From Candidatus Binatia bacterium (lineage in GTDB: Bacteria; Desulfobacterota; Binatia; UBA12015), in contig JAQWJE010000053.1 in the NCBI GenBank assembly GCA_029248525.1, positions 1-64,000 on the forward strand: a DNA stretch of 64,000 bases. Reading direction: 5' to 3'. The notes under the pieces are model-generated. The model worked only from the letters and a program-made list of their open reading frames with translations. It was not told where the DNA came from and did not search any database. A program made the translations under genes and the position numbers. Of this stretch, positions 3,530 through 48,240 are shown one piece after another (positions within the stretch are counted from its first letter, which is position 1; each line of letters opens with the position of its first letter).

Positions 3530-6310
3530 CTAGCTCGGCGGTGCGCTCAGGTCTTTGCTCGGGGGCGCGAATTCAGTGAGCTTGATTCCACTGACGGCAG
3601 CCTTGTACTCGTCGAGGGTGGGGGTGCGACCCAGGATCGAGGAGAGCACGACGACAGGTGTTGACGCGAGGAGAGACTCGCCCTTCTTGTCTGTCGCGTC
3701 GGCGACGACGCGTCCCTGAAAGAGGCGAGTTGAGGTTGCCATGACGGTATCACCCTTCGCCGCTTTCTCCTGGTTGCCCATGCAGAGATTGCAGCCCGGG
3801 CGTTCGAGGTAGAGTTGATTCTCGTAATCGGTGCGGGCAATGTTTTTTGGGGCCGTGTCGTCGAAGACAAAGCCGGCGTACTCTTGCAGGACATCCCAGT
3901 CGCCTTCGGCCTTGAGCTCATCGACGATATTATACGTCGGCGGGGCGACGACCAGAGGCGCTTTGAACTCGACGCTGCCGTGCTGTTCTTTAAGGTTCTT
4001 GAGCATATGCGACAGGATCTTCATGTCGCCCTTGTGGACCATGCACGAGCCGATGAAGCCGAGATCTACCGCCTTTTCACCCTTGTAGTAGGTGAGGTCG
4101 CGGATAGTGTCGTGGGTGTAACGTTTGGAGGCGTCCTCGTTGTAGACATCGGGGTCCGCGATCATGGGTTCATCGATCTTGTCGAGGTCGACAGTGAACT
4201 CCGCGTAATACTTGGCACCGCCATCGGGCGCGAGGGCGGGCTTGTCGCCTGCGTGGATCTCGGCGATGCGTCTGTCCGCATGGTCGATGAGGCCCTTCAG
4301 CACTTTCTTTTCGTTGTCCATGCCCTTGTCGACCATGATCTGGATACGGCTCTTGGCGATCTCGAGCGACTTGATCAGGGTCTCGCCCTCCGAGATGCAA
4401 ATGGAAGCCTTGGCTTTCATTTCCGCTGTCCAGTCAGTGAAGGTGAAGGCCTGGTCGGCCTCGAGCGTGCCGATATGAACCTCGATGATCCGCCCCTGGA
4501 AGACGTTGTCGCCACCGAACTGCGCGAGCATCTGCTGCTGTGTTGCGTGAACAACATCACGGAAGTCCATGTGGTCGGCCATTTTTCCCTTGAAGGTGAC
4601 CTTCACGGACTCGGGAATGGGCATGGAGGCTTCGCCTGTGGCGAGCGCGAGCGCCACCGTGCCGGAGTCGGCTCCGAAGGCGACGCCCTTGGACATGCGG
4701 GTGTGGGAATCGCCACCGATGATGATCGCCCAATCGTCCACAGTGAGGTCGTTGAGCACCTTGTGAATGACGTCGGTCATCGCGGGGTAGGAGCCCTCGG
4801 GGTCCCGCGCCGTGATGAGTCCGAATTTCTTCATGAACGTCATGAGCTTGGGGATATTCGCCTCGGCTTTTTTGTCCCACACGGAGGCGGTGTGGCAACC
4901 GGACTGGTAGGCGCCATCGATGATCGGCGAGATGACCGTCGCAGCCATCATCTCGAGCTCCTGAGAGGTCATCAGGCCCGTGGTGTCCTGCGAGCCGACG
5001 ATATTGACCTCGACCCGGACATCGGAGCCGCAGTGAAGAATCTTACCGGGGGTGGTGCCGACCGCGTTCTCGTTGAAGATCTTCTCGACCGCGGTAAGGC
5101 CTTGCCCCTCGTGGGAGATCTCTTGCGAGCGGGCGTAGACCTCCGGAGCTTCGATCCCGAGTGTCCTGGCTGCGAAGGTCTGCAGCTTCTTTCCGAACAC
5201 CACCGAGTAGGATCCTCCCGCCTTCATGAACTCCACCTGCTGGGGAGTGAAGGCGCTGGAGACGTCGATCAGCTCTTCGCCATCCTTATAGAGCTTCTTT
5301 TCTTGGGTGTTGATGGTGAGAACGGTTCCAGTGTCGACGGAATATGTCTGCTCGAGCACGGGATCGCCGTCTTCACCGCGGATGATATTCCCGTCAGCGT
5401 CCTGCTTCTTGACCCAGTTGTTGAGGTCGAGCCCGATCCCGCCTGTCACACCGACAGTCGTCATGAAGATCGGGGAGATGCCGTTGGTGCCCGCGACGAC
5501 CGGAGCGATGTTGATGAATGGAACGTAGGGGCTGGCCTGCTCGCCAATCCAGAGCGCGACGTTGTTTACGCCGGACATCCGGGAAGAGCCGACGCCCATG
5601 GTCCCCTTCTCGGCGATGAGCATCACCCGCTTGTCAGGGTGCTCCTCCTTCAGCCCGACTAGCTCTCTCTGAGCGTCTTCGCTGATCAAACACTTCCCGT
5701 GGAGCTCGCGATCGGAACGGGAATGAGCGTCGCTGCCGGGAGAGAGCAGGTCGGTCGAGATGTCGCCGATGCCGGCGACGTAAGTCACAAGTTCGATGGT
5801 CTCGGGGATGTCGGGGAGCTTGGTGAAGAACTCGGCCTTGGCGTAGCTCTCGAGGATGCCCGTGGCGATCGGGTTGCCTGCCTGATGGGCCTCCTTGAGA
5901 CGCTGGGTGTCGGCGTCGTAGAGGAAGACCTGAGTCTTCAACACATCCGCGGCGGCTTTGGAGACCTCCTCATCGCCGCCGAGCGCGAGGTCGAGGAGAA
6001 CGGCGATGGAGGGGCCGCCTTTCATGTGGGAGAGCTGTTCAAAGGCGGAGGCGGCGTCGATCTCTTCGACCTTGGCTTCGCCGAGGATGATCTCCTTGAG
6101 GAAGGCCGCCTTGGCGCCGGCCGCGCTCGTGGTTCCGGGCAGCGTGTTGTAGATAAAGAAGCGGAGCGCCTCCGTTCGATGAGCGCTCAGGGGGTCCTTG
6201 ATCAGCCCGATGAGTTCGCCGACCAGATCGGCTCCGTCGATCGGTTTCGCGTGGAGTTCATCGTTTTTTCGGTCTGCAATTTCTGCGAGGTAGCTTTCGT
6301 AAAGGCTCAT
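3530..6310 (-). CDS. acnB: Bifunctional aconitate hydratase 2 / 2-methylisocitrate dehydratase
   Basis: 926 residues, slightly longer than the usual ~865 of AcnB. It begins with the AcnB HEAT-like helical domain (residues 1-160), followed by the swivel domain with DLLSPGSDAHSRSDRELHG around 190-210, then the catalytic domains. Substrate-binding GGDSHTRMSKG is near residue 530, GSCMVHKGDM near 750, and the [4Fe-4S] ligands are the GSCM Cys plus CNLCMGNQ near 840. It converts citrate to isocitrate in the cytoplasmic TCA cycle and, in many bacteria, 2-methyl-cis-aconitate in propionate breakdown. The domain order and cluster motifs make the AcnB assignment secure; the substrate range is from family knowledge. 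No other TCA genes are adjacent. Confidence 0.97.
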   Translation of the reverse strand: MSLYESYLAEIADRKNDELHAKPIDGADLVGELIGLIKDPLSAHRTEALRFFIYNTLPGTTSAAGAKAAFLKEIILGEAKVEEIDAASAFEQLSHMKGGPSIAVLLDLALGGDEEVSKAAADVLKTQVFLYDADTQRLKEAHQAGNPIATGILESYAKAEFFTKLPDIPETIELVTYVAGIGDISTDLLSPGSDAHSRSDRELHGKCLISEDAQRELVGLKEEHPDKRVMLIAEKGTMGVGSSRMSGVNNVALWIGEQASPYVPFINIAPVVAGTNGISPIFMTTVGVTGGIGLDLNNWVKKQDADGNIIRGEDGDPVLEQTYSVDTGTVLTINTQEKKLYKDGEELIDVSSAFTPQQVEFMKAGGSYSVVFGKKLQTFAARTLGIEAPEVYARSQEISHEGQGLTAVEKIFNENAVGTTPGKILHCGSDVRVEVNIVGSQDTTGLMTSQELEMMAATVISPIIDGAYQSGCHTASVWDKKAEANIPKLMTFMKKFGLITARDPEGSYPAMTDVIHKVLNDLTVDDWAIIIGGDSHTRMSKGVAFGADSGTVALALATGEASMPIPESVKVTFKGKMADHMDFRDVVHATQQQMLAQFGGDNVFQGRIIEVHIGTLEADQAFTFTDWTAEMKAKASICISEGETLIKSLEIAKSRIQIMVDKGMDNEKKVLKGLIDHADRRIAEIHAGDKPALAPDGGAKYYAEFTVDLDKIDEPMIADPDVYNEDASKRYTHDTIRDLTYYKGEKAVDLGFIGSCMVHKGDMKILSHMLKNLKEQHGSVEFKAPLVVAPPTYNIVDELKAEGDWDVLQEYAGFVFDDTAPKNIARTDYENQLYLERPGCNLCMGNQEKAAKGDTVMATSTRLFQGRVVADATDKKGESLLASTPVVVLSSILGRTPTLDEYKAAVSGIKLTEFAPPSKDLSAPPS

Positions 6311-6560
6311 GGTGCTCTCTTTTCTTCAGGCGAGTCCTGAGGGGGCCGCTTGGCGTCGCCGCCACGGGCAGGACGGGCGGGCAATGCTGACTTTTGGCAG
6401 AATCGGGATAGACGAATAGAGCGCCTTCCGCGAAAAAAGGGCCCCGGTGATGAATACCGACTCGATCATGGAAATGCCAACTGGCGCGGGTGAGATTGCG
6501 ATGTCGTGGCATTTGGGACTGCGAATATTCGTGTGGATGCGCAGCGCTCAGGTGAAGTGA

Positions 6561-6641
6561 TTCGCAGACGTAGCTGTGGCGACGAGCTACAACTGCGCGA
6601 TTGGCGCGATGTGCAGCTATTGGGCGGCACGAGTTACATGA
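6561..6641 (+). pseudogene. Relic of the Cys-rich C-terminal domain seen at 517-1245
   Basis: Frame 6585-6641 reads SYNCAIGAMCSYWAARVT and then stops. It aligns with NYDCALGAICSFFAEKYP of the protein at 517 (DNA 968-1010), including both Cys, with about 80% nucleotide identity over the core 33 bp. There is no start codon, and a stop lies just upstream in frame. I read it as a decayed fragment of a paralogue. Confidence 0.55.
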
Positions 6642-6771
6642 TGTGGGTATACAACGAGTTCGAAGAGTGTTGCGACGCAGCTGCGCCGGACCGAACAGTC
6701 TTCTGCCGGTGCAGCCGCGACCTGCTTCACGATGGTTCTGGACATGGTCCTGAGAGATAAGGATGGTGTCT

Positions 6772-7151
6772 TCAAGGCCCTGAAGAAGTAGTTTTCGCAC
6801 ACCGTTGCTGGTTTCGAGTCATCCGCTGATGCCGTTCGCCGCTGCCGGATGCATGATGCATGAAGTACTGGAACGTCTCTCCGAACAGGTTGTCCCGATA
6901 CCGCTGTAGATCGATGAAGCGTTTGGCGGCTTGGTCACTGGCCGCATCAAGCGGTAGGCCACGGTCTGTAATTCCTTGGATGATTATGGCGATTCGTGAT
7001 TCTTGTTCAGGAACTCCCAGATGAATTGGGTGCCTTTATCTGTGGAGCATCCCCAAGGGCTGCGATTGTCGACCAGGCATTCCGGGTAGCCTTTTTGATT
7101 CACGTGTATAAGGCCAATTTTCTCATGCGCGAAACGCCTGCAGGGCTGCAT
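6772..7151 (-). pseudogene. Frameshifted gene remnant of unknown family
   Basis: On the minus strand an ATG at 7151 opens a 55-codon frame ending at 6984 (includes EKIGLIHVNQKGYPECLV and STDKGTQFIWEFLNKN). A second frame, open from about 7035 to 6772, continues with RIAIIIQGITDRGLPLD and AAKRFIDLQRYRDNLF. Joined by one frameshift near 6995 the two give a plausible ~125-residue protein start. I do not recognise the family. The first part shares RFAHEKIG with the minus-strand translation of 391-410. It could be a mobile-element or enzyme relic. Confidence 0.3.
7117..7136. repeat. Dispersed 20-bp repeat, copy 2
   Basis: The sequence attttctcatgcgcgaaacg differs from 391-410 at one base. Here it lies inside the beginning of the minus-strand gene remnant at 6772-7151, encoding RFAHEKIG. 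Confidence 0.5.
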
Positions 7152-8948: not shown

Positions 8949-9022
<74 letters not shown>

Positions 9023-22621: not shown

Positions 22622-23230
22622 ATGTTGAAGCTTCATTTTGCCCCTAACTCACGGGCTGGCCGTATCGTCTGGTTGTTGGAGGAACTTGGCCTCGACTATG
22701 AGGTGAATCGAATGGATTTTCATCCCAAGGATTTGAAGTCCGACGAGCACCGGGAACGGCATCCGCTGGGTCGGGTGCCGGTTCTCGATGACGGCGATGT
22801 TTCGATCTACGAATCGGGCGCCATTGTCGAATATGTGTTGGCGCGCCATGGCGACGGCGGTTTGAAGCCGGCCGTGGATTCTCCCGAGTTCCCCGAGTAT
22901 CTGCAGTGGTTTCACTATTGCGAGGGCATGGTCATGCCGCCCATGAATACGGTCGTGGTGCATACGATGCTGCTGCCCCCCGACCGTCGGGACGAAACCG
23001 TGCTCGGGCAAGCCAAGAAGCTTCTGGGGCGTGCGATCGCAGCCATCGACAAAGCCCTCGAGGGACGTGATTATCTGATCGGCGACTTCTCGGCAGCCGA
23101 TGTGATGCTAGGGCATTCGCTCTATATGTCGAACCGATTCGGGGAAGTCTCGGATGAAATGGCCAATATCAAAGCCTATCTGGGTCGGGTGGAGGCTCGT
23201 CCCGCGTTTCAGAAGGCGATCAGTTTGTAG
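22622..23230 (+). CDS. Glutathione S-transferase family protein
   Basis: 202 residues with AGAAGGAACGA before the ATG. The N-terminal thioredoxin-like domain has the family cis-Pro GRVPVLDDG and YESGAIVEYVLAR (residues 50-75), which binds the glutathione gamma-glutamyl part. The C-terminal helical domain has DYLIGDFSAADVMLG, the N-capping box. A Ser near residue 10 (APNSRAGR) is the likely glutathione-activating residue. It would conjugate or reduce electrophiles in the cytoplasm; the substrate is unknown. A second, unrelated GST-like gene is at 33428. Confidence 0.9.
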   Translation: MLKLHFAPNSRAGRIVWLLEELGLDYEVNRMDFHPKDLKSDEHRERHPLGRVPVLDDGDVSIYESGAIVEYVLARHGDGGLKPAVDSPEFPEYLQWFHYCEGMVMPPMNTVVVHTMLLPPDRRDETVLGQAKKLLGRAIAAIDKALEGRDYLIGDFSAADVMLGHSLYMSNRFGEVSDEMANIKAYLGRVEARPAFQKAISL

Positions 23231-23312
23231 CCATCGATGAGCGGATTCCGGGGACGGGGGCCGGCAACAGGCTTTTGGCGAATCCGGTCTTGAGCAGTTA
23301 ACCAAGGACACG

Positions 23313-24698
23313 GTGCCTCCTGACGCGAATACCCCGCAGGGTGCGAGCTCGACTGCCACCGGGAAAAGGGAAGGGCCGCTGCCTTTGGGGGTATCGATGG
23401 CCTACGGCCCACCGGTGGTGGGCGCAGCGTCGATGCTTTTTTTCGCGCAATTCTATTTCCTCAACTTCGCGACAGACGTGTTGTTGCTGTCGCCAGCCCT
23501 GATTGGTGGAATTTTTGCACTCGGCCGATTGTGGGATGCCCTGACCGATCCGCTCGTGGGGACGTGGAGCGACCGGACGCGGTCGCGTCTGGGGCGACGT
23601 CGTCCATGGCTTTTCGCGAGTACGCCGCTGCTCTTGCTCACCTTTGCGATGTTGTTTCTCCCGCCGGCGGGGCTCTCCGAGGGGCTGACCCTGATCTGGA
23701 TCACGATCGGTTTATTCAGCTTCTACACCGCTCTCACCGCCTATCTCGTGCCCAGCCAGGCGCTCGGTGCCGAATTGACCGATGACCATCACGACAGATC
23801 GCGGGTATTCGGTTTGCGCGGCGCCTTCTTCACGATGGGCATGGTCTATGCGTTTGGCGGGATGCAATACGTGATCAACGCGTCAGATCCACGTGCAGCG
23901 CTCGGACCGGTGGTCGCCGTCGGGCTGGGGCTCGGCCTCCTGCTGCTGATACCGCCCCTGCTGGTGAAGGAGCGGGAGGAATTTCAGGGCCGCGGTTCGC
24001 CGCATCCTCTTCAGGCGATGCGGGATGTCCTGCGCAATCCTCATGCGCGTTTGCTGCTTTTCGTTCAATTTGTCGAGATGGCTGGCGCCGGGGTGCTCGG
24101 CATCCTGTCTCCTTATATGATGAAGTACATCCTGAAGCGGCCCGACCTCGTCGGAATTCTTCCGGCAATTTTCGTGGTCTTCAGCGTGGCGTCGATTCCC
24201 GTATGGGTCCGCTTGATGCGGAAGTACGGCAAGCGGAATGTCTGGGTCGTTTCGATGGTCTTGTTTGCGTTCAGTTTCGGGGCGATCGCATTTGTGGAGC
24301 CCGGACAGTGGCAATGGATGGCTGGACTTCTTTTGATCGCCGGGACCGCGGCTGGCTGCGGCGCGGCCGCGGGGCCCTCGATTCTGGCCGACGTGATCGA
24401 CTATGATGAGTTCCTGACCGGGGAGCGCAAGGAGGGCGCCTACTCGGCGGCCTGGGGCTTCTCGATCAAATCCGCGAACGCGGTGATCATCTCTGTCACA
24501 GGTTTCGCGCTTGCGCTGGCTGGCTTCGAACCCAATGCGGAGCAGTCTTATCAAGCCGAGTTCACGCTCCGGGCACTCTTTGGTGGGTTGCCGTTCGTTC
24601 TTTATATAGCCGGCGCTTTCCTGTTCTCGCGTTTCCAACTGAACGAAACCGAGTACGCGAAGATCCGTCTCGATCTCGATCGCCGCCGCGAGCCTTGA
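23313..24698 (+). CDS. MFS transporter, GPH (MelB-like) sugar/cation symporter family
   Basis: 461 residues from a GTG with AAGGACA upstream; 12 predicted helices. Family landmarks are GRLWDALTDPLVGTWSDRT (the Na+-site Asp residues of MelB lie here) and RLGRRRPWLFASTP near residue 95, and ADVIDYDEFLTGERKEG after helix 10. GPH transporters co-transport sugars, glucuronides or other small molecules with H+ or Na+. No sugar-metabolic genes are adjacent; the next gene is a TonB receptor, so the pair may import one substrate across outer and inner membranes (inference from order alone). Confidence 0.88.
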   Translation: MPPDANTPQGASSTATGKREGPLPLGVSMAYGPPVVGAASMLFFAQFYFLNFATDVLLLSPALIGGIFALGRLWDALTDPLVGTWSDRTRSRLGRRRPWLFASTPLLLLTFAMLFLPPAGLSEGLTLIWITIGLFSFYTALTAYLVPSQALGAELTDDHHDRSRVFGLRGAFFTMGMVYAFGGMQYVINASDPRAALGPVVAVGLGLGLLLLIPPLLVKEREEFQGRGSPHPLQAMRDVLRNPHARLLLFVQFVEMAGAGVLGILSPYMMKYILKRPDLVGILPAIFVVFSVASIPVWVRLMRKYGKRNVWVVSMVLFAFSFGAIAFVEPGQWQWMAGLLLIAGTAAGCGAAAGPSILADVIDYDEFLTGERKEGAYSAAWGFSIKSANAVIISVTGFALALAGFEPNAEQSYQAEFTLRALFGGLPFVLYIAGAFLFSRFQLNETEYAKIRLDLDRRREP

Positions 24699-24828
24699 CG
24701 TGCGGGCAGTTGCTCAGAAGCGTCGGGTTTGACGAATGCCGTGCGCTTGGGCCAAAAAGGGACGTCTTTTATTCTAATTTCGTCAGCCACTGTCGAGGAT
24801 CGTTTCGGTCGTCGATCACGGAGATCCA

Positions 24829-27288
24829 ATGCTCGCCAAATCACTTTTCCCGACGATTCTTGTCGCCACCCTCATCCTGCCCAATGCGGTGGCGAATGCC
24901 CAGCCCGCGGCGCCCAGCGAATTTCTCGATTCGGTCATCGAGGGGCAGCCGTCGACAGGTGGCGTCGCTTCCGAAGATGATGCTCTCGACGCGCAGGCGG
25001 CACGTCTTGCCGAAGGGGAGCAGGTCCCCGGGGTTTCCCGCCAGGCCGCAACGGAGATCGAGCAAATCGTGGTGAGCGCCCGGAAGCGGACCGAGTTGCT
25101 CGAGGATACACCGCTTTCGGTAACCGCGCTCGGTGAGGACTTTCTCCGCGAAACCGGCACAACGCGGCTGGACGAGATCAAGAATTTCGTCCCGAACCTC
25201 CAGATCATCACCGGTCGCGCCGGACAGGATGCCATTGTCCGCATCCGTGGGGTGGGCACAGCCACCGGCGAGATCGCCTTTGACCCCGGTGTCGGGATCT
25301 ACGTTGATGGTGTGTTTCTTCCCCGGTCGCTGGGGTCCCTTGTGCAGGTTTTGGATGTGGCTCAGATCGAAGTCTTACGTGGCCCTCAGGGAACGCTTTT
25401 CGGGAAAAATACCATTGGTGGCGCGATCAATATCACCACGGTGAAGCCGAGCGAGGAACTTGAGGGTTTCGCTCTGGTACGCCCCGGTAACTTTGGTCGA
25501 ATCGATACGCAGGCCATCCTCAACTTGCCCATCGATATTGGCTGGCTCGAGGACAAGCTCTTTACTCGCTTGACCTTCGGTTCGAGCAACGACAACGGCT
25601 ATACCTACAATCGCACTCTCGACCGAAACTGGTCGAATCGCGGAAACTACTCTTTCCTGGGCAGTCTGCGTTTCCTGCCGACAGATTCTGTCACGATCGA
25701 TATCAGTGGTACGTGGGGCAAGACGCATACTCGCCCGAAGGGCGGAAATTGCCGCTTCATCGAGTCGACGGTTGCACAGGCTCTTTTGTATCCCTCCTAC
25801 AAGGAGGCCTGCGAGGAGTCCGGTGAACTCGGGGGCGTGTATCAATTCGAGGCGGACACCACGAGCTTCTTTGATATTGCAAGCTACGGAACGTGGGGCA
25901 CGATCTCGTGGGACGCCGGCGACCTTGGCCCGATCCGGGACCTGACCTTGAAGTCGATCACCTCCTGGCGCGAGCAGCGTCCCAGCACCCGACAGGATCT
26001 GGATATGAGTCGTGAGCTCGTCCTGAATCTAGCTCTGACCGAAGGCGGGCTGGACGGTTCGACCGCCGGGTTCCAGCAGCAGTTCAGCCAGGAGCTTCAG
26101 GCGAATGCCAGCGCACTGGACGAACGTCTGCAGATGGTCGGCGGCGTGTTCGGATTCTGGGAGAAGGGGGATATGCCTTTCGTGACGTACTCCGAGCCCG
26201 AGTCGACGTTCATTCCGGTAAGCCCCATCAATGTCGAAAGCCAGTCGCGAACGGACAATTGGAACTGGGCACTCTACGGACAGGGCACGCTGGATGTCAC
26301 CGAGTGGCTCAGTCTGACCGGCGGGCTTCGCTACACGCAGGAAAAGAAAGGTGCGTCTCAGCAAAACACCAACCGCGGGACTGGCGAGGCTGACCCGCCT
26401 TACAGCGGTCGCGTTGTCTATGAGGCATGGACTCCCATGGGGTCGATCGCCATGACAGTTCCGGACGCCTTGCTGGACGGGACTGAAGTAGACCATCTGC
26501 TGGGCTATTTCACATACTCCCGGGGCTTCAAGGGCGGTGGCTTCAATGCGATCGTCAACCTCGACGTCACCGAGCTGGAGCCGTTTGCGCCTGAGTATCT
26601 CGACTCTTTCGAGGTGGGAGTGAAAACGGTTGCTTTCGACCGGCGGCTGGTCGTGAATATGGCGGCGTTTGTCGGAGAGTACAAAGACAAGCAAGAGTCC
26701 TCGATGCGTGTGAACAACGATCCTGAAGATCTGGACGTCCAGCGCCTGACCCAAAACGCGGCGTCGGCAACAACACGCGGTATCGAGCTTGATATCTTTG
26801 CCATGCCTTTGCCTGGACTGCAGATTACCGGATCGATCGGCCTTCTCGACGCACGCTATAACTCGTTCCCCGATGCGATCAGCGAGCTGAACAATGAAGA
26901 GACCGTCAACCGGGCTGGCCAGCCCTTCTTCGATGTCCCGCAGATGCAGACCCATATCGGCGCGCAGTTTTCCCTGCCTCTCGACCTCGGCGGGCCGGAG
27001 TGGATGGTCGGCTGGGTCACGCCGAGGATCGACTGGTCCTATACAAGCGCGATCACGTTCGGGGGCGAGGAACTTCCCTACGCGACGCAGGGCGGGGTCA
27101 ACCTGCTCGCGGCCCGCTTGTCCTACGGATTTATGGACAACAGGGCTCAGGTGGCTGTTTGGGGCAAGAATCTTCTCGACAAGCGATATTTCGGAGCGAA
27201 GAATTCCTGGGCTAATCTCTTCGGGAGCGTGATCCGTTACTACGAGCCACCGCTGACCTTCGGCGCCGAGCTCTCTTATCGATTCTGA
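24829..27288 (+). CDS. TonB-dependent outer-membrane receptor
   Basis: 819 residues: signal peptide to about 24, an extended ~60-residue segment, then a TonB-box-like EIEQIVVSARKR (near 75), the plug domain with RIRGVGTATGE, GIYVDGVFLPRS and EVLRGPQGTLFGKNTIGGAINI, and a 22-strand barrel ending in a Phe (ELSYRF). Such receptors import siderophores, cobalamin, carbohydrates or hydrophobic compounds with energy from TonB-ExbBD. The sequence resembles the large 'iron complex receptor' group common in degraders of hydrophobic compounds, in which iron is often not the substrate. It follows the GPH transporter after 130 bp. Confidence 0.95.
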   Translation: MLAKSLFPTILVATLILPNAVANAQPAAPSEFLDSVIEGQPSTGGVASEDDALDAQAARLAEGEQVPGVSRQAATEIEQIVVSARKRTELLEDTPLSVTALGEDFLRETGTTRLDEIKNFVPNLQIITGRAGQDAIVRIRGVGTATGEIAFDPGVGIYVDGVFLPRSLGSLVQVLDVAQIEVLRGPQGTLFGKNTIGGAINITTVKPSEELEGFALVRPGNFGRIDTQAILNLPIDIGWLEDKLFTRLTFGSSNDNGYTYNRTLDRNWSNRGNYSFLGSLRFLPTDSVTIDISGTWGKTHTRPKGGNCRFIESTVAQALLYPSYKEACEESGELGGVYQFEADTTSFFDIASYGTWGTISWDAGDLGPIRDLTLKSITSWREQRPSTRQDLDMSRELVLNLALTEGGLDGSTAGFQQQFSQELQANASALDERLQMVGGVFGFWEKGDMPFVTYSEPESTFIPVSPINVESQSRTDNWNWALYGQGTLDVTEWLSLTGGLRYTQEKKGASQQNTNRGTGEADPPYSGRVVYEAWTPMGSIAMTVPDALLDGTEVDHLLGYFTYSRGFKGGGFNAIVNLDVTELEPFAPEYLDSFEVGVKTVAFDRRLVVNMAAFVGEYKDKQESSMRVNNDPEDLDVQRLTQNAASATTRGIELDIFAMPLPGLQITGSIGLLDARYNSFPDAISELNNEETVNRAGQPFFDVPQMQTHIGAQFSLPLDLGGPEWMVGWVTPRIDWSYTSAITFGGEELPYATQGGVNLLAARLSYGFMDNRAQVAVWGKNLLDKRYFGAKNSWANLFGSVIRYYEPPLTFGAELSYRF

Positions 27289-28761: not shown

Positions 28762-30870
28762 ATGTCGCCGCGACAGGTGAAGGCCTTGAGCGCCGTTGTG
28801 TTGCTCGCGGTGATTACTTTTATCTGGGACTATCTTGCCAGTTTGGAGCTTCCGGAAGGTGGATGGGAGTCTACCAAGTGGCCCACGGATCTGGTGCGTT
28901 ATTATTATCCGGTTGCCCGCTATCAAGGTGCGATGCTCGCAAGCGGAGCGCTACCTTTCTGGAACCCGTGGCAGCTCGCTGGGTTTCCGCTGCTGGCAGC
29001 GCCCGCAGCCGGGATCCTTTATCCTCCACTGATTGTCCTGACTTTATTGCTGCCAGCCGAAGTCGCGCTTGAAGTGCACGCAGTCTCTCATCTGTTCATC
29101 GGTGGTGCCTTTATCTGGCTCCTGCTTCGCCGGCTGCAAGTTGGACCGGTAGCCGCACTTTTGGGATCGTTCGCGTTTGCTGTTTCCGACGAGATGCTGA
29201 GGGAAACCGAGATCACTTCCTATCTTTCGACCGAGGCTTGGATTCCCGGAATCTTTTGGGCCATCCTGGCTCTGATCGACGAACCCCGGTTCCGGCGTGC
29301 TTTGGTTTTGGCGTTGATTCTGACGATGAGTTTTCTCGGAGGACATGCGCAGGGGCTTCTGTACGGAATGTTTTGGGCGGTTCCGTTCGGTGTCGCGGGC
29401 CTTCTCTGGCGAGCCCCTGACAACGCTGCACGTCTTCATGTTCTTGGCTGGTTGGTGCCAGCTGCGCTTCTGACGATTCTGTTCTCGGCACCGCAGCTCT
29501 TCCCGAGTCTCGAGTTGATGTTCGACGGAAGCCGCAGCCAGGATCCATTAACGCCATGGCAAGCGGCCTTCGGCTCCTCGCAATGGCAGCGCATCTGGAA
29601 CGCGATTACGACGTTGAACACGCCGGGGGCACTCTTTGGCTACCCGGCACTTCTGCTCGCCCTGTGGGGTGCGGTTGGGCTAACTGAGCGATGGGCGCGC
29701 CTGACGATTCTCTCGCTGGCCGTGCTTGCCTTTCTTTATATGCAGGGCCAAGCCTCTCCCGTCTGGTGGTTTTTCTACGATCTTCCGTTTGGTAAATCGT
29801 TTCGGGGGCCCGGGCGGATTGCTCCGCTATTGGTCTTTCTGGTGGCGGTTCTGGCGGGCCTCGGCGCGCAGAACTTGATTGAATTTTGCCGTCGCCTTCG
29901 GCCAGGTCGCTCGCTGGAAGTCGCCGCTGCCGGCATTGTGTTCCTTCTGATTCTCGGTGATGCGCTTTGGTTCGGGCCACCGCGCTATCAGTACCAGCAA
30001 TTACGTCAGATGGATTCCTGGGGAGTTTCGATTTTAGGGACGCGCCCTCCGGCCTTGCCTGCCTCTCAGCGGACTCTTTTGCTACCTGCGCTGCACTTCG
30101 GAACCCTGGACAGACAGGTCAAGACGGGAATGACGCAGCGTCGGCCGGTTTTGAATGAGTATGAGCCTATCCTGCCTCAGCCTTATTTGGACTTTTTCAA
30201 CAAATCGGGGCTGTGGCATGGGGATCTGAAGCTCGAACGCGAGGCGGGGGGAAACCGGCCACTACCGGAATTTACTCGGATTCTTGATCTGATGGGTGTG
30301 GACGAGACCATCGCTTTCGGGAAACCCGCTGCCCTGGCTGCCGTGCAAGAGGCGAAGGAGGTGACTGTGCAAGTCGATGATGTATGGATCACGAAGCGCC
30401 GAAACGCTCTTCCTCGAGCCTTCGTCGTTTATCAGACTCTCGTCGAGTCCGATCCGGAAAAGGCGCGGGAGAAACTCTTGGGCGCGAGTTTCCGCCCCCG
30501 AACGACCGCAATCGTGGCGAACGGCGAGGCGCTGCTTCCTGTTGAGGATTTCCTCCACGGGCAAGCCACGATCGAGAACTATGAAGAAGGTCGGGTCGAT
30601 GTAAGAGCAGTTTGCGGGGGGCCCTGCCTGCTGGTTTTGACCGATCTTTTCTATCCGGGCTGGGAAGCCTGGGTGGGAGAGCGGGAAGTGCCGATCGTGA
30701 AAACGAATATTGCATTTCGAGGCATCAGGCTTCCCGCGGGCGCGCATCAAGTCGAATTCCAATATCGGCCCGCCAGTTTTCGTTGGGGCATGATTCTTTT
30801 TCTCGGCGGGGTTGTGCTCGCGTTGTTCGGATTGTGGCGAGACCGGTCCAGTGTCGCAGGCGGATCCTAG
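28762..30870 (+). CDS. YfhO-like polytopic membrane protein (GT-C-type)
   Basis: 702 residues from the ATG at 28762, with GGAAAG five bases before it. About 12 membrane helices occupy residues 10-420, including the first periplasmic loop DLVRYYYPVARYQGAML and LPFWNPWQLAGFPLL, the signature of YfhO-type proteins (acidic residue and WNP). A soluble C-terminal domain (about 440-680) ends with LTDLFYPGWEAWVGERE and a final helix. YfhO proteins are thought to glycosylate lipids or teichoic acids from polyprenyl-linked sugars; here the acceptor is unknown. Its stop overlaps that of the convergent selenoprotein gene in a shared CTAG. Confidence 0.85.
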   Translation: MSPRQVKALSAVVLLAVITFIWDYLASLELPEGGWESTKWPTDLVRYYYPVARYQGAMLASGALPFWNPWQLAGFPLLAAPAAGILYPPLIVLTLLLPAEVALEVHAVSHLFIGGAFIWLLLRRLQVGPVAALLGSFAFAVSDEMLRETEITSYLSTEAWIPGIFWAILALIDEPRFRRALVLALILTMSFLGGHAQGLLYGMFWAVPFGVAGLLWRAPDNAARLHVLGWLVPAALLTILFSAPQLFPSLELMFDGSRSQDPLTPWQAAFGSSQWQRIWNAITTLNTPGALFGYPALLLALWGAVGLTERWARLTILSLAVLAFLYMQGQASPVWWFFYDLPFGKSFRGPGRIAPLLVFLVAVLAGLGAQNLIEFCRRLRPGRSLEVAAAGIVFLLILGDALWFGPPRYQYQQLRQMDSWGVSILGTRPPALPASQRTLLLPALHFGTLDRQVKTGMTQRRPVLNEYEPILPQPYLDFFNKSGLWHGDLKLEREAGGNRPLPEFTRILDLMGVDETIAFGKPAALAAVQEAKEVTVQVDDVWITKRRNALPRAFVVYQTLVESDPEKAREKLLGASFRPRTTAIVANGEALLPVEDFLHGQATIENYEEGRVDVRAVCGGPCLLVLTDLFYPGWEAWVGEREVPIVKTNIAFRGIRLPAGAHQVEFQYRPASFRWGMILFLGGVVLALFGLWRDRSSVAGGS

Positions 30871-32390
30871 TCGGGTACGATCCGCTCGCAGGCATCCCAG
30901 AGTCGCCGTCGCTCCTGCTCGGTTTCAGTTGTAAAGGGCAGGAGATGGGTCCGTCGGGCGATCCGGTCCAGGAAAAATTTGCCTGTGGATTTTCGCGCGA
31001 CCTCGCTGGCAGCCAGCCATAGCAGGGTGTCTGCACCTTCGGTCGGAGTGCGCAACAGGGGGCCCATGATGCGGTGAAAGAGCGGTAGCGATGAACGTAC
31101 GGCGGGCGTGTCAGCCCAGCCGGGATGCATCGCATGGACAGTCGCTCTTTTTCCCAGCCGTTCAGCCCATAGTTCCGAGAGGACGACCTGCGCCCGTTTG
31201 GTTTGGGCGTAGGCCATGACGCCATCATAGGGCGCTGCGGGTGCAAGCAGTCGATCGACGTCGAGCCGTGTGGAGTACATTCCGCCGGAGGAAACCCAAA
31301 GAAGTCGACCGTCGCCGGATTTGCCGAGCGCTTCTTCCAGACGACGGGTAAGCAAATGTGGCCCCGCAATATGCGTCGCGAACGCGAGTTCGAGGTCTTG
31401 CGGAGTTCTTTCGAATCGATCCGAGAGAACCCCGGCATTGTGGATGAGGATATCGATCGGTTTCGCTTCAAGTTGCTCGGCGGCTCGCTCGACCGATTCG
31501 AGGTCCGACATATCGACCTGCACCGTTTCGATCTGTTTGCTGCCGGTACTTTCTTCGATTTTTGCCTTGGCAACTGCGGCACGCTCGGGATTGCGACAGA
31601 GCAGGGTGACCCGGGCTCCCAAATCGGCGAGGCCCATTGCGGTTTCGAGGCCGATGCCGGAGTTCGCCCCTGTGATCACGCAGTGGCGCCCGCCCAGATC
31701 GACGTCGAGATCCCCCGGGGAGAATGCCAAAGAGCGGAGCAGGAAGCCGGTTCGGTCGAATGAGAAGATGATTGTCGGATCGACAGCGGCCCCAAGTGCC
31801 AACCCCGCGAACCGCTGGGCGGCCGGTGGCTCGGGCAGGTTCAGGTCTTCGACAGGTTGCGGACGGTCAAGCGATGCAAGAATCTCGGCCGGGTCTGCGT
31901 GATCCCCGGCTTCCCGGCTGCGATGCTGATAGAGAAGATCTCCTCCTGGCCGGATGACGAAGGTCCCGCCTAATTGCCAGGGGTCGCCTTCGACGGAATT
32001 TTGCCGATATCCGGCCGCCAGCGCGCGAGCAGCGTTGGTCCAGAGTCGGGGTGAAAGAATCTCGGCTCGGCCTCGGCGCATACCTGCGGCCCGGTAGCTC
32101 AGAAGCTCCGGATCGACGAGAATCGTCCCGGCCAAGTCGAGGTCTTCGCGGAAGGCACGGGCGAACTCGGGAGTCCCGTTGCCGATGATGATGAGAGAGG
32201 CTCCTCTTGCCTCGATGGCGTCTATTTCGTCACGCAACTGCGCGACTTGCTCGCGGCAAAAGAGTCAGCCGAAATGGCGAACAAAGAGAAGCACGGCTGG
32301 CCGATCAGCCCAAAGGCTGCTCAGGCGCACTGGCATCCCGGCATCATCGGAAAGTGAGATCTGGCCGAGGCGGCGCTCCAACAAACTCAT
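30867..32390 (-). CDS. Selenoprotein: SelU/PRXL2-like peroxiredoxin domain fused to a short-chain dehydrogenase (in-frame UGA = Sec42)
   Basis: Read with TGA at 32265-32267 as selenocysteine, the frame starts at the ATG at 32390 (MSLLERRLGQISLSDD) and gives 507 residues. Residues 1-175 form an AhpC/TSA_2 thioredoxin fold: VLLFVRHFGULFCREQV has Sec in place of the first Cys of the family CxxC, followed by LIIIGNGTPEFARAF and LSYRAAGMRRG. Residues 230-507 are an SDR: NAD(P) motif TGANSGIG at 240, HNAG, catalytic Ser in VSSGG and YAQTK, closest in style to DHRS12/retinol-dehydrogenase-like SDRs. Thiol peroxidase or redox-relay action coupled to an NAD(P)H-dependent reductase is inferred. Standard gene calling would start after the UGA and lose the first ~50 residues. 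Divergent from the enoyl-CoA hydratase gene. Confidence 0.85.
32229..32246 (-). promoter_or_regulatory. Candidate bacterial SECIS hairpin for Sec42
   Basis: On the minus strand, positions 19-36 after the UGA form GUCGCGC-AGUU-GCGUGAC: seven pairs (one G-U) closing a 4-nt loop whose second base is G. The loop begins 25 nt after the UGA, inside the usual 16-37 nt range for bacterial SECIS elements, and a G in the first two loop positions is the known requirement for SelB. The fold was done by hand. Confidence 0.55.
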
Positions 32391-47079: not shown

Positions 47080-48240
47080 ATGATGGTTCAGGAGGAAATC
47101 CCGGCGGCGCTGCGGCCCGAGACAGAGGCAGCGCTTGCCTGGTTCAACAAGACGCAAAGGTCTCCCTACTCGGTGACCGGTATTGTGGACCCCGAAGTCC
47201 CCCTGAACGCTGGAGCGACCCGCCTGCTTCATCTGGTTTTGTGCAGCGGGACAAGCTGCGAGCAGCGCACCTTCCGTGTGACGAGGAGCGACAATGGCTT
47301 CGCGGTCGAGTCTGCCGAATCCGAGGCATTTGCACCGGCGGATGGGAAGGTGATTGCGGAACTCGATCCGCCTCCGGGGCCGCGCCGCGCCTGGCTGGAC
47401 CGCGCATTGGGCGAGCAGGCATTCGTTCTTTTACTATTCTATCGAGGTTTTTGGTGACCACCGTGTCGCGCCGAGTTGCGGGGCTATATGAATGCTGGTG
47501 TGGCGGATCGAGTGCGGGCCGCCGGAGGTGCGATCTACGCGATCTCGAGCGAGCCACAGTCGTTGGCGAATCGAGCGCAGGAGGCGTGGGGGCTGGACTT
47601 CGAAACTCTTGGTGATCCACACCACGAGATTGTCAAACAGTGCCGCGCCAACGATTGGCTCGACCTCCTGGTGAATGAGCGCCTCGGGTTCCTCCAGGCG
47701 AGTCTCGGTGAGGGACTGGACTGGGAGCCGACTCACCCCAAGGGATATCTGCAGCCTGGCGTGCTTGCTCTGCGTGGGGATGGTCGCGTCCTCTATCGGT
47801 GGAGGGGGGTGCCGACGCGTTCCAATATGGGCGGCGCGATGGGGCGGCCGACGCCCGAGCACGTGTGGTCGAGTATCGAAGCTGTGTTGGGAGCGCCCGT
47901 CCGAGATCGAGACGCAGAGCTTGATAAGGCGCCTCCGCTGGACGGCAAGGGCGTGCCCTGGCCAATATTCGTCTCTCTGCTGCTCGCCAACGGCTGGTTT
48001 CTTCGTGGACGCGGTTTCGACTCGGTCCAGCAACTCAGGCGCGCGCCGCTCAAATTAGCCGGCTTCATCGCTCTTTGGACCGCGGCTTTTCTCTGGTTGC
48101 CCTTGATTCTCACAGGAACCGCTCTGGCTCTTTGGGTGGCCTATATCATTCCGAAGGTCCGCTGGTTGGGTGAAGAGTTTCAGGATGTGACTGGCGACCC
48201 GCAGCCTGCTGCTGCGCGAAGGTCTGATCGAGAAACTTGA
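47080..48240 (+). CDS. Selenoprotein: AhpC/TSA-like thioredoxin-fold protein with C-terminal membrane hairpin (in-frame UGA = Sec126)
   Basis: Read through the TGA at 47455-47457, one frame gives 386 residues from the ATG at 47080 (ATG at 47083 also possible). Residues 1-100 form a small beta-rich domain with CSGTSCEQ. Residues 105-295 are a peroxiredoxin-like domain: FVLLLFYRGFWUPPCRAEL carries Sec in place of the first Cys of the family FYRGxWCPxCR motif, then GGAIYAISSEPQSLA and YLQPGVLALRGDGRVLYRWRG. Residues 335-370 hold a hydrophobic segment (LWTAAFLWLPLILTGTALALW), so it is probably membrane-anchored. Peroxide or disulfide reduction is inferred. The 3' end overlaps the convergent hydrolase gene by 95 bp. 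No hairpin as good as at 32229 follows this UGA. Confidence 0.8.

Follow-up and report, generated by a model that had tools for sequence, protein, structure and literature searches.

Redox proteins related to SelL are known as single-domain proteins, often with selenocysteine (Sec, U), and are collected in the NCBIfam family NF040769 (SelL_rel_redox). The gene described here lies on the minus strand of a 64,000-nucleotide stretch of DNA from a Candidatus Binatia bacterium (contig JAQWJE010000053.1, assembly GCA_029248525.1; the whole stretch is referred to as the window, and positions are given in its numbering). It has its UxxC motif at the same position as that family and an AGUU-type loop like that of some Sec-containing members, but it is joined to a short-chain dehydrogenase/reductase (SDR). 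Nine unfused matches over the NF040769 cut-off occupy frames of 186-237 amino acids in eight cases and 566 amino acids in one, and the unfused copies that were traced have no SDR behind them, unlike the gene in the window. The best match by both fold and profile is human prostamide/prostaglandin F (PGF) synthase, also named SelU3 (PMC3473315), which has Cys rather than Sec, consists of a single domain, and is only 22-27% identical. SelL of aquatic organisms is named as related by the NCBIfam model; it has two Sec residues, as UxxU (PMC3473315), whereas the frame in the window holds one in-frame TGA and has Cys45 at the second position. A catalogued peroxiredoxin-like AhpC/TSA selenoprotein (pfam13911/cd02970; PMC9312934, PMC13188914) belongs to the same Pfam family and has Sec first in its motif, but its catalogue entries give a UxxS motif and no fused domain, a difference from the UxxC gene of the window that is one of description only. 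The GOS survey lists other selenoprotein fusions. The initial annotation of the window had supposed the SDR fusion to be novel, in agreement with its absence from the tables of two selenoprotein catalogues of 87 and 119 families (PMC9312934, PMC13188914); literature searches covering titles and the beginnings of abstracts (some of the result lists being partial) also returned no paper on a SelL-related/SDR fusion. Single-domain relatives are thus known, and the fusion to an SDR is what is new.

The apparently stop-broken gene probably encodes one chain of two parts, a Sec-containing redox domain and an NADP-type SDR. That it is a genuine selenium enzyme is very likely, given that a dozen other bacterial genomes share this architecture. 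The gene and its parts, as predicted, are the following.

30867-32390, minus strand: whole fused selenoprotein gene, from ATG at 32390 to the stop TAG at 30869-30867, 507 residues with Sec42.
32265-32267, minus strand: TGA, predicted selenocysteine 42, forming UxxC with Cys45; TGA in 13 of 13 fused genes found, aligned with Cys44 of human PGF synthase.
32229-32246, minus strand: hairpin GTCGCGC-AGTT-GCGTGAC resembling a selenocysteine insertion sequence (SECIS), loop at 32239-32236; assigned from pairing across 12 sequences and published rules.
31866-32381, minus strand: SelL-related/AhpC-TSA_2 (PRXL2-like) thioredoxin-fold domain, residues ~4-175; assigned from profile matches and a fold match.
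31698-31865, minus strand: linker, residues ~176-231, with low model confidence over residues 182-228.
30879-31697, minus strand: SDR domain, residues ~232-504, with TGANSGIG, S367/S368, Y394, K398 and R266; assigned from a profile match and invariant residues.

Reading of the sequence bears out the frame, the TGA position, the motif FVRHFG-U-LFCREQ and the ATG at 32390 proposed in the initial annotation: in read-through translation the minus-strand frame 32390-30867 has a single interruption, the TGA at 32267-32265, and the product would be ~55 kDa. In the automatic list of open reading frames (ORFs; translation table 11), the same frame appears only as a 456-amino-acid ORF from TTG 32237. 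Mechanical annotation that cuts the gene at the TGA or starts it at this TTG leaves a headless SDR, and the redox half is lost.

Comparison across genomes supports the TGA as a codon for Sec. A scan of GTDB r220 contigs yielded at least 80 loci, 11 of which (L002-L012, a lower bound) carry the whole fusion, aligned end to end at 53-59% identity to the window protein and with TGA as the aligned codon in all 11. These and the window gene form the 12 aligned fusions. A thirteenth (L138), which ends at a contig end inside the SDR, emerged from an NF040769 search of 118 genomes of the window's class; 11 matches scored over the cut-off, each with one internal TGA, including those of the window and of G085, whose copy is L138. 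Thus TGA stands at the Sec42 codon in all 13 fused genes found (window, L002-L012 and L138), the second motif position is Cys45 in all 12 aligned fusions, and the 41 residues ahead of the UGA are conserved in them and line up with the N-terminal end of the SelL-related family. When residues 1-190 of the window protein were compared with 81 loci (the 80 plus L001), 14 matched, 13 of them spanning residue 42; the match in L013 begins only at residue 133, at a contig end. Unfused copies with either residue occur, with TGA at the aligned codon in SAR324 (L056) and Cys in L016 (FLRHFG-C-IFC). This Cys and Cys44 of human PGF synthase align at residue 42, as expected from the initial proposal that the TGA replaces the first Cys of a CxxC motif. 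The in-frame UGA is therefore conserved across species at a position where homologues have Cys, and it would be read as selenocysteine 42 in the predicted product. Chance or a sequencing or assembly error at this position, as well as a frameshift or a pseudogene, is ruled out by the presence of the TGA in the 12 other fused genes.

The hairpin behind the TGA provides a second line of evidence. With the TGA counted as columns 1-3, the hairpin starts at column 22, and its seven pairs in the 12 aligned fusions give standard pairs in 84 of 84 cells. Five of the seven pairs are invariant, one varies on one side, and one is changed on both sides in L005, a double change that L138 also carries. The AGUU loop is invariant in the aligned fusions, and the hairpin lies at a fixed distance from the TGA; sliding the partner strand by 1-3 columns lowers pairing to 8-57%, and RNAalifold recovers the same helix unprompted. 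The Leu codon at +10, which contributes to the AGUU loop, is the rare TTG in 12 of 12 genes; elsewhere in these genes TTG makes up 53 of 688 Leu codons. Among 167 columns with an invariant residue, 13 keep one codon in all 12 genes, and four of these 13 lie at +5 to +10. Synonymous resampling that kept the protein reproduced the full stem in 0.8-12% of samples per gene, and every one of the 12 observed hairpins was more stable than the mean of its synonymous samples (z -1.0 to -3.5). The hairpin at 32246-32229 accords with the published rules for bacterial SECIS elements, which call for a 3-9 nt loop carrying G within its first two positions, a stem of 4-16 bp, a spacing of 16-37 nt and an energy of at most -7.5 kcal/mol (PMC13188914); it has a 4-nt loop with G at position 2, a 7-bp stem, 25-nt spacing and an energy of -11.6 kcal/mol. 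Within the window, this gene is the only place where a 7-bp stem with an AGTT loop follows a TGA at 14-29 bases. The result is a clean comparative SECIS candidate, with an AGUU loop and a fixed TTG codon, outside the well-studied elements of E. coli. Beyond the fusions, CAGTTG stands at the same distance behind the TGA in 9 of 19 unfused TGA rows. Eight other unfused TGA rows have CTC...GAG there, with three bases between; this SECIS-like type occurs in the SelL-related genes L130, L132, L133, L134, L135, L141, L144 and L146, with a predicted stem and three-base loop in six of the eight.

The machinery for Sec insertion, whose absence the initial annotation would have taken as a refutation, was found in the window's own genome. 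Each component scores over its family cut-off: selA (540.6 bits) and selB (332.6 bits) lie side by side on contig C35, selD (265.5 bits) is on contig C14, and tRNA-Sec (70.1 bits, gathering score 47) is on contig C49. The results for selB, selD and tRNA-Sec cover this genome and 14 control genomes, whereas selA was also over the cut-off in each of 13 additional genomes, namely those of the 11 GTDB fusions, SAR324 and L016.

Both halves of the proposed two-domain fusion match Pfam families over the cut-off, AhpC-TSA_2 at residues 51-159 and adh_short at residues 236-433. The N-terminal match (PF13911) has an E-value of 1.3e-18 and 67.9 bits against a gathering score of 27. NF040769, with a cut-off of 120 bits, gives 139.9 bits for the whole protein, 142.3 for the domain alone and 133.5 by whole-genome search. 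All 13 members of the domain alignment also hit this model at E <= 0.001. The label SelU/PRXL2-like used in the initial annotation is retained for the wider superfamily, while the closest named family is NF040769, "SelL-related redox protein". Modelled alone, the domain is predicted with confidence, at a mean predicted local distance difference test score (pLDDT) of 85.7 and a predicted template modelling score (pTM) of 0.81. Among solved structures its fold comes closest to human prostamide/PGF synthase (9usa, E 8.4e-12; 9us9, E 3.5e-10), with peroxiredoxins ranking next. A profile search finds human PGF synthase at 3e-22, placing U42 and C45 on its Cys44 and Cys47.

The SDR half (adh_short, E 5.2e-25) matches many SDRs, with protochlorophyllide reductases at the top of the fold search, and may resemble DHRS12-like (SDR40C) SDRs. 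All 13 fusions keep G241, G245, G247, S367, S368, Y394, K398 and R266, which include the classical SDR features TGxxxGxG, Ser and YxxxK. NADP(H) binding typically goes with an Arg behind the second strand, and the domain is a classical SDR with a predicted NADP-type binding site. The linker between the two halves is predicted by the model to be flexible.

These features suggest, tentatively but as the likeliest mechanism, a bifunctional NADPH-dependent enzyme in which the UxxC domain may reduce an organic peroxide or endoperoxide and the SDR may reduce a carbonyl, by analogy with the human homologue, which has CxxC and reduces prostamide H2. The selenolate would attack the organic peroxide or endoperoxide, a selenenyl-sulfide would form with Cys45 and be reduced by an external thiol or thioredoxin, and the SDR domain would reduce a carbonyl of the same substrate, perhaps an oxidised lipid, with NADPH. 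SDRs carry no flavin, which makes direct hydride transfer from NADPH to the selenenyl-sulfide less likely. The earlier suggestion of an NAD(P)H-linked redox enzyme is supported as far as the NADP-type SDR is concerned, with the SDR more plausibly catalysing a second step than passing electrons straight to selenium. The fusion ties a Sec family of unproved function, the SelL-related proteins, to a dehydrogenase, and in some relatives it is also tied to light-response and lipid-modifying genes, from which a concrete substrate guess can be drawn.

The guess of an oxidised lipid derives from photolyase, CMAS, DUF1365 or light-sensor genes beside the fusion or its unfused halves in some relatives. 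The fusion in L002 has as neighbours DUF1365, an amine-oxidase-type flavoprotein, CMAS, a Polyketide_cyc2 protein, a photolyase, and a MerR regulator with a sub-cut-off B12-binding match. In SAR324 (L056), the SDR (5968-6966) and the Sec-containing SelL-related gene (TGA at 7113) are separate neighbouring genes, with DUF1365, CMAS, BLUF and photolyase genes in the same region. A photolyase-type gene adjoins the L138 fusion and a CMAS gene the L008 fusion; of less weight are a lipocalin and a Polyketide_cyc2 gene near L010, an NmrA/DUF2867 gene near L011 and, near L004, an NAD-binding gene from the same BLAST cluster. Two recurrent neighbour families (shared by L002, L007 and L008, and by L002, L007 and L010) have no Pfam match in the members scanned. 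The surroundings in L002 and SAR324 resemble the LitR/UfaM clusters of Pseudomonas, as in P. mendocina PME6630, where an SDR stands beside a photolyase, an FAD oxidoreductase and UfaM (PMC9758184); that SDR is not described there as fused, and its likeness to the SDR of the window is one of description only. Such Pseudomonas clusters of photolyase, SDR, flavoprotein and UfaM are light-inducible (PMC9758184), and the DUF1365 protein UfaO produces furan fatty acids (PMC7380195). A more specific and quite doubtful version is that the two coupled steps on one chain repair photo-oxidised membrane lipids: the Sec domain would open the endoperoxide of a lipid (perhaps a furan fatty acid), in the way that PGF synthase acts on prostaglandin or prostamide H2, and the dione so formed would be reduced by the fused SDR with NADPH.

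At the level of whole genomes, DUF1365 is present in 9 of the 11 GTDB fusion genomes and in SAR324, compared with 6 of the 46 class relatives in which no fusion is known. Photolyase (FAD_binding_7 over the cut-off) shows a weak contrast, being found in 8 of 11 fusion genomes versus 17 of 46 class relatives, as well as in the window's genome, G085, SAR324 and the genome of L016. CMAS occurs in all 14 genomes searched and is over the cut-off in 11 of 14 controls, so that its presence says little. Contig C15 of the window's own genome (~23100-25600, L184) holds a photolyase followed, near the contig end, by a CMAS gene whose product is 52% identical to the CMAS beside the L008 fusion and 47% identical to that of L002.

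Several observations pull against the selenium-enzyme reading and its proposed chemistry. The machinery models are not fully specific, since 5 of the 14 control genomes also have tRNA-Sec over its gathering score, and selB, selD and selA exceed their cut-offs in 2, 2 and 1 of 14, respectively. Covariation in the hairpin is thin, its observed score being reached by 112 of 500 column shuffles, and the window's 51 nt, when folded by themselves, do not exceed dinucleotide shuffles in stability (z -0.44); with the energy of the single hairpin unremarkable, the case for it rests on the comparison between species. In the SDR, the Asn of the catalytic tetrad is replaced by His340 in 13 of 13 fusions, so that SDR activity is not certain; the same position in 71 unfused relatives is His in 25 and Asn in 35, and with the position variable among these SDRs, His340 lowers confidence in activity rather than in family membership. 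The full-length model (pTM 0.58, residues 182-228 below 50) is silent on contact between the domains. A photolyase, CMAS or DUF1365 gene stands beside the fusion in 3 of 13 loci, the available DNA being short for several; inspection by eye and BLAST clusters, with nine ORFs scanned, revealed none of these genes around L003, L005, L006, L007, L009 and L012. The ten scanned neighbours in the window itself are ordinary (MFS, TonB receptor, thioesterase, TauD, YfhO, enoyl-CoA hydratase, GST, methyltransferase, DUF3604 and OprB). DUF1365 was not found in the window's genome, G085 or the genome of L016, and its absence from the first of these weakens the idea of a photo-oxidised lipid.

Other explanations of the fusion differ in how well they fit these data. 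The selenium domain could be a built-in redox switch or reductant for the SDR, with oxidation of U42-C45 turning the dehydrogenase on or off. A regulatory role would agree with the fusion of a redox domain to an enzyme and with a long linker modelled at low confidence, and the SDR also exists unfused (71 rows), but the UxxC domain resembles an enzyme (PGF synthase) and peroxiredoxins rather than a regulatory domain, the only invariant SDR Cys in the 12 aligned fusions (C265) is absent from 41 of the 71 unfused relatives, and SAR324 has the two domains as separate proteins, so that a switch seems unlikely. Somewhat less probable still is a neutral fusion, in which neighbouring genes lost a stop codon and two unrelated activities came to share a chain. 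Such a fusion would need little, as the genes are adjacent in SAR324, and the link can evidently be lost, as unfused L014 and L016 fall inside the smallest SDR clade that holds the fusions. Against this, the fusion persists at 53-59% identity in at least 11 genomes and in another family of the class (G085), a persistence that points to selection for linkage. The possibility that the UGA is an ordinary stop followed by an internal restart (for example at TTG 32237, where the listed ORF begins and which all 12 aligned genes share, as would be expected of a start codon), leaving upstream a short peptide or decayed remnant, is hardly credible, and as the source of the main product it is ruled out by the conserved 41 N-terminal residues that align with the family start, while a restart at residue 52 would also deprive the modelled domain of its first three strands and of the UxxC site, and the equally placed CAGTTG of the nine unfused rows has no SDR behind it.

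The fused gene is rare in the window's own group, and its distribution is patchy. The 12 further genomes with the fusion comprise at least 11 in GTDB r220, with record titles of Deltaproteobacteria, Myxococcota or Myxococcales, or Proteobacteria, and one (G085) from another family of the window's class. Across 58 genomes (the window's own and relatives), a full-length match was found only in the window's genome among the matches listed. In 395 genomes of the phylum, 12 match a profile of residues 1-232 at E <= 1e-20, and with at most seven candidates scored per genome the linker is spanned only by the window's match; G095, of the same species and 63% complete, has one weak domain match (E 6.5e-5). 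A tree of the SelL-related domain (52 rows, with three genes present twice) places the 13 fusions together with a support of 0.081, the next larger clade having 0.943, and at this support a single origin is not proved. In the SDR tree, the smallest clade with all 13 fusions (support 0.961) also holds the unfused L014 and L016, as well as L013, L015 and L017, whose matches start at a contig end. In L016 (6001-12735), the SDR is unfused and a Cys-form SelL-related domain lies ~5 kb away on the other strand, an arrangement that possibly reflects fission with loss of Sec.

Among other SelL-related genes with TGA, L152 and L154 have their halves in different frames, which suggests frameshifts or assembly errors. 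A second selenoprotein candidate is present on the plus strand of the window, with an in-frame TGA at 47455-47457 in the motif FYRGFW-U-PPC and an AhpC-TSA match of 37.2 bits (cut-off 26); the RNA behind this TGA is not unusually stable (z 0.70), and GAGTTG recurs there. The window also carries a tRNA gene at 8949-9022 on the plus strand, its sole Rfam match at the gathering level.

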